From the IMG/VR virus record IMGVR_UViG_3300022227_000014, positions 1-35,179 of that record: a DNA stretch of 35,179 nucleotides. One strand, written 5' to 3'. Source of the DNA: a virus. This document shows positions 9,859 through 34,063 of the stretch, one piece after another; position 1 is the stretch's first letter; the number at the start of each line of letters is the position of its first letter. The position numbers and the translations under genes were made by a program. Below the pieces are notes generated by a model that saw nothing but the letters and a program-made list of their open reading frames with translations, searched no databases and was not told the origin of the DNA.

Positions 9859-10617
9859 ATGGAATTTACAGATTTAATCTACAGGAACTATAATTTAATC
9901 ACAACAATAGAAGCTGAATTATTGGCTGATATTGTTATAGATAGAAATCCTAAAAAAATAGTAGAAGTTGGAACCTATGGAGGATTCGCTACCTGCTATA
10001 TTGCTAAAGCTCTTGAAAAAATCAAAGGTGATGATTTTGTAACGATTGATTGTGATAGAGATATTCAGCCTACTGCCGAAGAAACTATTGCAGACAATAA
10101 GTTACAAGATTATGTTAGATTTACAAGATTAGCAGAAAATTATAATGCATTAAAAAAAGCAGTAATATTAGAAAGTGCTGATGCAGATTTTGTATTCATA
10201 GATTCATGTCATGAAGAAATTGCAGATCTATGGAAAGCAATCGTAAAGAAAAATGAATGCAACAAGATAGTAATATTGCATGATGTACAATGCGATAAAG
10301 TTCCTGGAATGAATATGCCAGGATTGTTCGAGAAGCTTCAAGAAGATTATAAAACAGAATTAATAGAGACATGTGATAACAACGGCAACCCTAACGGCTT
10401 TGGGCTAATTGACTTAAAGAAAATTGGAGGTGATCTAGCATCTAAAACGGTCGCAAGAAAAATAGATGAAAAATCTATCAAAGAGGTTGATGTTGAAAAA
10501 AATAATAAAAAAACAGTATGTGCAATCTGTGGCAAGGAATATAAGCGAATCCCAGCTTCACATGTTGAGAAGGCTCATGGAATGTCTTTAGTAGAATATA
10601 AGCAAAAATATGGATAA
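9859..10617 (+). CDS. SAM-dependent methyltransferase with C-terminal Ros/MucR-like zinc finger (252 aa)
   Basis: Residues 1-190 are a class I methyltransferase: motif I is KIVEVGTYGGFATCYIAKAL, the acidic strand is FVTIDCDRD, and ADFVFIDSCHEE with IVILHDVQ completes the core, the order seen in Methyltransf_24-type O-methyltransferases. After a lysine-rich linker comes CAICGKEYKRIPASHVEKAHG with MSLVEYKQKYG: C221, C224, H235 and H240 in the Cx2C-x10-Hx4H spacing of the Ros/MucR zinc finger, including the HGMSxxEY element. The acceptor substrate is unknown; a protein, sugar or nucleic-acid target is possible, and the finger could dock it. It follows the 988-aa tail gene with a GAGGT site and is the last gene before a regulatory gap. 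Confidence 0.75.
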   Translation: MEFTDLIYRNYNLITTIEAELLADIVIDRNPKKIVEVGTYGGFATCYIAKALEKIKGDDFVTIDCDRDIQPTAEETIADNKLQDYVRFTRLAENYNALKKAVILESADADFVFIDSCHEEIADLWKAIVKKNECNKIVILHDVQCDKVPGMNMPGLFEKLQEDYKTELIETCDNNGNPNGFGLIDLKKIGGDLASKTVARKIDEKSIKEVDVEKNNKKTVCAICGKEYKRIPASHVEKAHGMSLVEYKQKYG

Positions 10618-10618
10618 A

Positions 10619-10634
10619 TTGATATTTATTAAAA
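10619..10634 (+). promoter_or_regulatory. candidate phage promoter element (ATTTATTA-type)
   Basis: TTGATATTTATTA is found here, and the same 13 bases recur at 33346-33358; ATTTATTATAA also occurs at 18911-18921. All three lie in rare intergenic gaps just ahead of a gene or transcript start. In T4 the late promoter read by gp55 is TATAAATA, and this is a similar AT-only element, but function is not shown. Confidence 0.35.
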
Positions 10635-10636
10635 AT

Positions 10637-10694
10637 AGGAGGATGGGAATAGCTATCCCTTAATGAAATCACCTTATTTGATTTCACCTCCTTA
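10637..10694 (+). promoter_or_regulatory. three-way-junction RNA fold with an anti-Shine-Dalgarno segment
   Basis: Three helices can be drawn by hand. An outer stem pairs AGGAGG (10637-10642) with CCTCCT (10687-10692). Inside it, GGG (10645-10647) pairs CCC (10657-10659) around the palindrome ATAGCTAT, and TGAAATCA (10664-10671) pairs TGATTTCA (10679-10686) perfectly around a 7-nt loop. The second hairpin abuts the outer stem and could stack on it. The right flank TCACCTCCTTA (10684-10694) equals the last 11 nt of bacterial 16S rRNA. There is no U-tract, so a simple terminator is less likely. Two mini-ORFs lie within it (ATG 10643 and ATG 10663, the latter ending Pro-Pro-stop). Confidence 0.55.
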
Positions 10695-10753
10695 AACTCT
10701 AATAATGAGAGAATAATGGTTTAACTAAGTTTGATATAAAGGAGATAGATAAT

Positions 10754-10846
10754 ATGCATGAAAAATATGCAATAAATAATGGACACAACTTTAAAAGAAT
10801 CTGGGCATCAGACGTAAAGGGAGGTGTTGACTTATCGCTTTTCTAG
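10754..10846 (+). CDS. 30-aa upstream ORF overlapping the next gene's start
   Basis: ATG at 10754 is preceded by AAAGGAG at 10738-10744 with good spacing. The product is MHEKYAINNGHNFKRIWASD plus KGGVDLSLF, ending TAG at 10844-10846. Its last codons contain the ribosome-binding site (GGGAGGTG, 10819-10826) and the start of the next gene in another frame, so ribosomes finishing here would be positioned to re-initiate. No family recognised. It may be a coupling or leader peptide; whether the peptide itself matters is unknown. Confidence 0.5.
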   Translation: MHEKYAINNGHNFKRIWASDVKGGVDLSLF

Positions 10847-11394
10847 ATTCGTCCACAGCCGTTATCGACGCTATACTTACAAGAAAAGGCAGAGAATTAC
10901 TAGCAAAGAATGATGGTTCGTTTAAAATTACTAAATTTGCTTTTGGTGACGATGAAATCAACTATCAGCTTTACGATGCTTCGGCATCTGATCCAGATGC
11001 AGATATAAATAATCTTCCTGTTCTTGAGCCAGTCTCAAATGAGGCTGTAGCGTTGAATAATAGATTGATAACGTTAGCGAAAGGATCTCTTAAGATTGCT
11101 ACATTGAGTCTTAAGCCTACCAAAGCTACAGCAGATTTTAGTGCAACAACAACTTTTACTGCTGAAACAGATAATGGTGAAGATCCACAGGGTTATGTAG
11201 CAGTATCAAGAGATGTAGATATTGCTTTATTGACTAATACGAAAGAACTTCCAGACAATGGGATTGCTACATTCACGATTTCAACTGGAGTTAATGCAGG
11301 CTCAAAATCTGGTACTGTAAAAATTGATGTAACAGGAATAAATACAGGCGCGAGAGCAGAGTTTGAATTGACAGTTTCAGCATCGGCCACCTGA
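10834..11394 (+). CDS. MAFLD-type virion structural protein with Ig-like C-terminus, apparent AUC start (186 aa)
   Basis: The frame opens after a TGA at 10828-10830. From 10834 it reads ATC then AFLDSSTAVIDAILTRKGRE, LLAKNDGSFKITKFAFGDDE and INYQLYD, which is the conserved N-terminus of a structural protein common in large T4-related phages, where it begins Met-Ala-Phe-Leu-Asp. The Met position is occupied by ATC, and GGGAGGTG at 10819-10826 stands 7 nt ahead, ideal for starting at this codon. A later TTG (11053) would remove the whole conserved domain. The C-terminal ~100 residues (IATLSLKPTKATADFSATTT onward) look like an Ig-like beta domain. A sequencing error (G to C) or entry by frameshift from the overlapping upstream ORF are alternatives. 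Confidence 0.75.
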   Translation: MAFLDSSTAVIDAILTRKGRELLAKNDGSFKITKFAFGDDEINYQLYDASASDPDADINNLPVLEPVSNEAVALNNRLITLAKGSLKIATLSLKPTKATADFSATTTFTAETDNGEDPQGYVAVSRDVDIALLTNTKELPDNGIATFTISTGVNAGSKSGTVKIDVTGINTGARAEFELTVSASAT

Positions 11395-33385: not shown

Positions 33386-34063
33386 ATGAATTGTGAAGAA
33401 TGCGGAAAATCAATAACAGGCAGAGGTAAATCTAATTATTGTCAAAGATGCTTCATGAGAATAGTCAAGCCTGGCAAAAAAGGAGGAGGTTGGAGCAAAG
33501 GATTAACAAAAGATACTGATGATAGAATTAAAAAAATGTCCATAAAAGTATCCGCTGCACTTAAAGGAAAGCCCAAGACAGAAAAGCATGCAACAAAATT
33601 ATCAAAAATTTTCAGGAAAAAATACGCAGGAAAAGGTAATCCTTTTTATGGTAAAAAACATTCAGATGATACTAAAAAAATATTATCTGAAAAGGCTATA
33701 CATAGATCAAAAAAAATTAATCCTATATTCAATATTTTAAACAATATTTCGAATTCAGATACTAGTATTGAAGTTGCTGTAGAAAATTTTTTACAATCGG
33801 AAAAAATCGAATACAAGAAACAATATAGAATATATTATAATAAAATAAATTTTAAGATATATGATTTCTATCTACTAAAAGAGAATATTCTGATAGAAGT
33901 TGATGGTGATTTTTGGCATTGTAAATTAGAGAAAAAACCCAAGAATTATAAAGATATAATTGTGAATGATAAATTAAAAAATGATTTAGCTACAGAGAAT
34001 GGATATAGATTAGTTAGAATATCTCAAAGCGAGTTAGATAGCGTTTGGAGGATTATAGTATGA
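33386..34063 (+). CDS. free-standing homing endonuclease, Vsr-like (EDxHD) with zinc ribbon and NUMOD3 (225 aa)
   Basis: Residues 3-22 form a zinc ribbon, C3-x2-C6 and C19-x2-C22. Residues about 30-110 carry NUMOD3-type DNA-binding modules: GGGWSKGLTKDTDDRIKKMS, ALKGKPKTEKHATKLSKIFR, then GNPFYGKKHSDDTKKILSE. The nuclease domain follows: EVAVENFLQSEKIEYKKQYR, a KIYDFYLL strand, then ILIEVDGDFWHC (E171, D173, H178) and NDLATENGYRLVRISQSELD, the order of the Vsr-like fold used by EDxHD homing enzymes. TGGAG lies 8 nt ahead of the ATG. It is a mobile gene without an intron here, inserted between the Nudix operon and a glycosyltransferase, and ends in a 4-nt overlap with the latter. Confidence 0.85.
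   Translation: MNCEECGKSITGRGKSNYCQRCFMRIVKPGKKGGGWSKGLTKDTDDRIKKMSIKVSAALKGKPKTEKHATKLSKIFRKKYAGKGNPFYGKKHSDDTKKILSEKAIHRSKKINPIFNILNNISNSDTSIEVAVENFLQSEKIEYKKQYRIYYNKINFKIYDFYLLKENILIEVDGDFWHCKLEKKPKNYKDIIVNDKLKNDLATENGYRLVRISQSELDSVWRIIV

Follow-up and report, generated by a model that had tools for sequence, protein, structure and literature searches.

In the 35,179-nucleotide stretch of viral DNA analysed here (IMG/VR record IMGVR_UViG_3300022227_000014; hereafter the window), a conserved gene for a virion-type protein appears to begin with an AUC codon. The assignment of AUC as the start codon of this gene is well supported, being backed by independent relatives in which the same codon recurs. 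As to how the codon came to be there and how it works, we give a probability of roughly 0.6 to a reading in which a very strong Shine-Dalgarno (SD) sequence places the start, a short upstream open reading frame (uORF) is coupled to the gene, and the AUC is a by-product of the insertion of a homing endonuclease gene (HEG). Displacement of the ATG by a HEG, leaving AUC, can be read directly in the sequences of a second branch of the family, and we infer the same for the window. The features of the region are collected in Table 1.

Table 1. Features of the leader and start region of the virion gene in the window.
Feature	Positions	Strand	Details
Leader of the relatives' type (GATATTTATT...AGGAGG)	10621..10642	+	Read against the leaders of relatives
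Folded leader element	10634..10696	+	z -2.87; 2 of 200 shuffles as good
TCACCTCCTTA, exact copy of the usual 16S rRNA 3' tail	10684..10694	+	1 in the window against 0.04 expected
SD of the uORF, AAAGGAG	10738..10744	+	-8.7 kcal/mol
uORF, MHEKYAINNGHNFKRIWASDVKGGVDLSLF then stop	10754..10846	+	Stop TAG begins 10 nt after the first base of ATC
Extended SD of ATC, GGGAGGTG	10819..10826	+	-15.2 kcal/mol with the 16S tail; doubles as the K-G-G codons of the uORF
Conserved virion-type protein gene	10834..11394	+	186 codons counting ATC; motif MAFLDSS...

The start of the virion gene

At the position where relatives have the Met of Met-Ala-Phe-Leu-Asp, the sequence does read ATC (10834-10836), as the original prediction held, and the next codons are GCT TTT CTA GAT (AFLD). 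An in-frame TGA (10828-10830) is followed by CTT and then by the ATC, and the first in-frame ATG, GTG or TTG after this stop is TTG 11053, which lies inside the domain; the claims of a stop two codons upstream, and of no ATG, GTG or TTG between it and the domain, are thus both borne out. The internal TTG was considered as a start and rejected, since its use would cost 73 conserved residues. Read from the AUC, the predicted N-terminus of the protein would be (M)AFLDSSTAVIDAILTR. No canonical start in frame at the conserved N-terminus was found in the window or in the relatives L017 and L300. The AUC is presumably decoded by the initiator tRNA, and no special phage-encoded tRNA was found in the window or in the related loci. 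Neither a Pfam match nor a solved structure was found for the protein; in some relatives it has weak PHROG matches to tail or structural proteins.

The SD had been claimed to lie 7 nt before the ATC, and both its spacing and its strength agree with this claim. Its pairing energy is the best of 43 scored across the gene starts of the window, and an upstream SD of -13 or lower is found at only 0.2% of window positions. There is also an internal SD-like match, GGAGGTGATC (10425-10440; -19.6 kcal/mol), within a methyltransferase gene (9859-10617), with no obvious start in use. The product of that gene, which stands ahead of the leader, carries a methyltransferase domain and a ROS/MUCR-like C-terminus.

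Relatives with Shine-Dalgarno sequences

Close relatives were taken from IMG/VR and the codon at the Met position was read in each, which is the comparison that the original prediction had proposed. Most relatives have ATG, and ATC is found again in L017 and in L115-L117. When start sites were collected irrespective of codon, 162 distinct sites were obtained, comprising 149 ATG, 7 TTG, 3 GTG and 3 ATC, the last being those of the window, L017 and L115. L017 (protein identity 65%) has ATC with a very strong SD and no uORF; the gap before its gene holds no ATG, and there is no NTG in frame. In L115-L117 the same ATC is present in three separate assemblies from different samples. The only in-frame ATG of L115 (at 2965, 11 codons upstream) was rejected as a start: it has no SD (-1.5 kcal/mol) and is missing from the window. 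A search of genome_contigs found no relative.

The SDs at the three ATC sites are -15.2, -15.8 and -13.0 (window, L017 and L115 types, respectively), against an average of -6.3 for the ATG sites of the same clade. More generally, the TTG, GTG and ATC starts have stronger SDs than the ATG starts (p 1e-4, uncorrected for relatedness). In a weakly supported tree, a small clade with ATG falls among the window, L115 and L017, so that ATC may have been gained once and then reverted.

The lack of a canonical start was also set against other genes. In the phage group, 254 conserved start regions were tested, 10 of which have no canonical codon close to the aligned start (L115 was scored as ATG-bearing in this survey, owing to the ATG 11 codons upstream). 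The best-supported two of the ten, with 52 relatives each, belong to the virion gene, one in the window and one in L017, and the remaining eight seem to come from alignments that are internal or shifted. Among the 254 regions, only the virion gene convincingly lacks a canonical start.

The uORF and the leader

The uORF mentioned in the original prediction is present, and the proposed tie between it and the AUC gains weight from L115-L117, which have a homologous uORF in the same frame relation. The L115 uORF (MNDKKHTLFAEKRGFTILRIWASEVEKGGIQSLF, then stop) matches that of the window when searched against the window (E 4.7e-4). The two have in common a RIWAS[DE]V..KGG core, with changes that are mostly synonymous (for example, Ser as TCA versus AGC); their length differences are multiples of three, and the N-terminal half is unconserved. 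When the motif was sought elsewhere, real matches were found in the L115 group only, and the uORF peptides gave no convincing match to named phages.

The uORFs resemble the C-terminal end of a DUF559-type HEG in L115 (4497-5201) and of a protein in L215, the matches being short. The match of DUF559 itself to the uORF is short and weak (E 0.04), and a fainter, short C-terminal similarity is seen between the two uORFs and a Vsr/NUMOD3 HEG of the window (33386-34063). The uORF of the window is likely to be the C-terminal relic of a Vsr/DUF559-like HEG, and it would be translated and coupled to the virion gene. As for these two longer genes, the one in the window is homing-endonuclease-like, with a NUMOD3 motif and a Vsr-like domain, and the one in L115 is an intact DUF559-type endonuclease gene, flanked by two virion-type genes and placed second after the ATC-start gene.

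As to the RNA fold of the original prediction, one element of the leader is unusually structured (Table 1), but the leader as a whole is ordinary (z -1.3). An AGGAGG in the folded element (10637-10642) is able to pair with CCTCCT. Two pairing partners are open to the copy of the 16S tail, the SD of the uORF and that of the ATC; the duplex with the ATC SD is calculated at -15.1, and the ensemble favours the uORF SD. Neither the copy nor the folded element is seen in the leaders of L115 or L017. It may be speculated that the two could regulate the uORF. The leader of the relatives' type is followed by ATG 10643, which opens an ORF of 6 codons only, and this leader with its ATG is a possible site of the displaced start.

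A second branch with HEGs at the start codon

The family was also scanned with ATC, ATT or ATA allowed ahead of the family motif. Thirteen contigs were obtained, 13 of 13 with ATC and none with ATT or ATA, and as the set was selected by this very requirement, its counts are uninformative on how often HEGs yield ATC. Four were those already known (L115-L117 and L017). The nine new contigs belong to a GYLNN branch, with 78% identity to a protein of a Flavobacterium phage; that protein itself starts at ATG. In this branch no SDs are found at either ATG or ATC starts. Missing SDs are expected for phages of Bacteroidota.

In four of the nine (L301, L303, L304 and L305) a GIY-YIG HEG ends 12-21 nt ahead of the ATC. 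The HEG of L305 is cut by the end of the contig; in the other three its 5' end is present, with its ATG shortly past the end of the upstream gene, at the place that the leader and ATG of the virion gene occupy in the relative L035. PF01541 (GIY-YIG) scores above the cut-off in the HEGs of L301 and L304. In L301 and L303, the end of the upstream gene and the leader before the HEG match those before the virion ATG in the uninvaded L035. In four further contigs (L298, L299, L300 and L302) the HEG is gone and its 3' edge is kept, as TTAAAACCTAGAAATC-ATC-GGATATTTAAATAA, and L299 retains in addition some 45 nt from the end of the HEG. In L300 and L302, which are identical here, there are 45 nt from the upstream stop to the ATC, with no ATG, so that no start can come from an intron or a uORF. 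A single site offers a series of alleles: empty (L035), occupied (L301, L303) and scar (L298-L300, L302). In total, a HEG stands directly before the virion gene, or has left its 3' edge there, in 8 of the 9 ATC contigs of this branch, and in the ninth, L306, no HEG was seen.

A GIY-YIG-type endonuclease also stands directly upstream of the virion gene in L039, L048, L053 and L129, where the start is ATG or TTG. ATC is therefore not forced by insertion, and these four are other outcomes of insertion at the start of the virion gene.

Two further features of the branch are recorded here. The HEG and the virion gene of L301, L303 and L305 share a frame, with one TAA between them, so that readthrough would fuse them, and the same three contigs have a tandem pair of ATC codons at the start of the virion gene. 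The sequence TTAAAACCTAGAAATCATCGG is nearly or fully identical across L298-L303 and L305 despite diverged flanking genes, and could either belong to the target of the endonuclease or serve as a translation signal.

Origin of the AUC start

The reading that we prefer runs as follows. A HEG would insert at the start of the virion gene and take over its leader and the position of its ATG, and the virion gene would then initiate at an AUC on the 3' edge of the HEG. The HEG could later be lost, with the AUC persisting. In the window, the HEG would have decayed to a C-terminal stub, namely the uORF, which carries the SD of the AUC, and by coupling, ribosomes that reach the end of the uORF could reinitiate at the AUC. 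Several observations count against this proposal: the similarity of the uORF to HEGs is short and weak, L017 and L306 have no recognisable HEG remnant, the HEG-bearing L039, L048, L053 and L129 start with ATG or TTG, the second branch has no SDs that would place its AUC, and the tree would allow one origin with a reversion.

More tentatively, the data may point to start-codon capture, in which the ATG of one conserved virion gene is the insertion site for HEGs from at least two families (GIY-YIG and Vsr/DUF559-like), the HEGs take that gene's leader and ATG position for their own use, and the substitute AUC outlasts the HEG; we consider this wider idea possible, with the balance somewhat against it. 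The weak start may then make the gene dependent on the element itself or on translation of its remnant.

A genuine AUC need not have anything to do with HEGs: it could be a start that is weak and tuned, within a family already drifting to TTG and GTG, with the SD compensating. The stronger SDs at TTG, GTG and ATC sites than at ATG sites agree with this idea, as do L017 and L306 and the weak similarity of the uORF to HEGs. However, it does not account well for the HEG or HEG edge in 8 of 9 ATC contigs of the second branch, for the presence of ATC alone with neither ATT nor ATA, or for a second branch in which no SD compensates, and we regard it as rather unlikely.

A programmed -1 frameshift would make the ATC no start at all: ribosomes on the uORF would slip at CTT TTC before its TAG and produce a fusion of uORF and virion protein. 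The uORF has its own SD, its frame relation to the virion gene in L115 survives in-frame length differences, and an internal SD, the proposed stimulator, lies 10-13 nt ahead of CTT TTY TAG; stimulation of -1 shifts by SD-like sequences is known (PMC10885494). Against this, the slippage site (G CTT TTC for the window; L115 has G CTT TTT) is not an XXXYYYZ heptamer, ATC occurs with no such uORF in L017, L298, L300 and L302, none of the surveyed relatives has a comparable N-terminal extension, and a frameshift gives no reason for the Met position to be ATC. We consider it improbable for the window, and it cannot account for L017, L300 or L302.

The remaining two alternatives can be dismissed briefly. 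The window is a single contig, and so an error of sequence or assembly in an ATG start might be suspected, but the same codon in the three L115-L117 assemblies and in lineages with different surroundings leads us to reject a read error. Group I introns often carry HEGs, and the leader is long in the window and L115, which would suit splicing of an upstream ATG exon to the domain; but no Rfam match was found in the window region (E up to 1) and no intron match in L115 or L017 (E up to 0.5), and in L300 and L302 the ATC follows the previous stop after only 45 nt, so that splicing is scarcely credible.

Implications and comparison with known systems

Gene callers as a rule omit near-cognate starts, with the result that a conserved virion gene would be truncated or missed in such genomes. 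If the proposed origin is true, HEGs would not be confined to intergenic sites but could seize a start codon and lastingly alter the translation of a virion gene. The idea of HEG insertion can be tested on the empty, occupied and scar alleles, and AUC initiation can be studied in two natural settings, the SD-rich and the SD-poor branch. A partial search of the literature found no account of an AUC start left on a virion gene by a HEG.

The classic near-cognate start is that of infC. In S. aureus, conserved near-cognate starts with an extended SD have been demonstrated for cvfC1 (AUU) and ccpN (AUA) (PMC13009471). The gene described here resembles all three in having an AUH codon at a conserved start with an unusually strong SD adjoining. 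It differs from them in that they are cellular and mostly regulatory, whereas this is a phage virion gene, with AUC and an overlapping uORF.

Free-standing HEGs of T4-like phages overlap their neighbours, and hairpins hide their ribosome binding sites (PMC2988022). As in the present case, they are HEGs beside conserved phage genes (PMC2988022), but here the HEG occupies the leader and the ATG position of the downstream gene, leaving AUC. Finally, the arrangement in the window is similar to the translational coupling of overlapping cistrons (PMC2268962), in that the stop of the uORF overlaps the next start and the SD lies inside the uORF; the difference is that the putative reinitiation would here need to use AUC.
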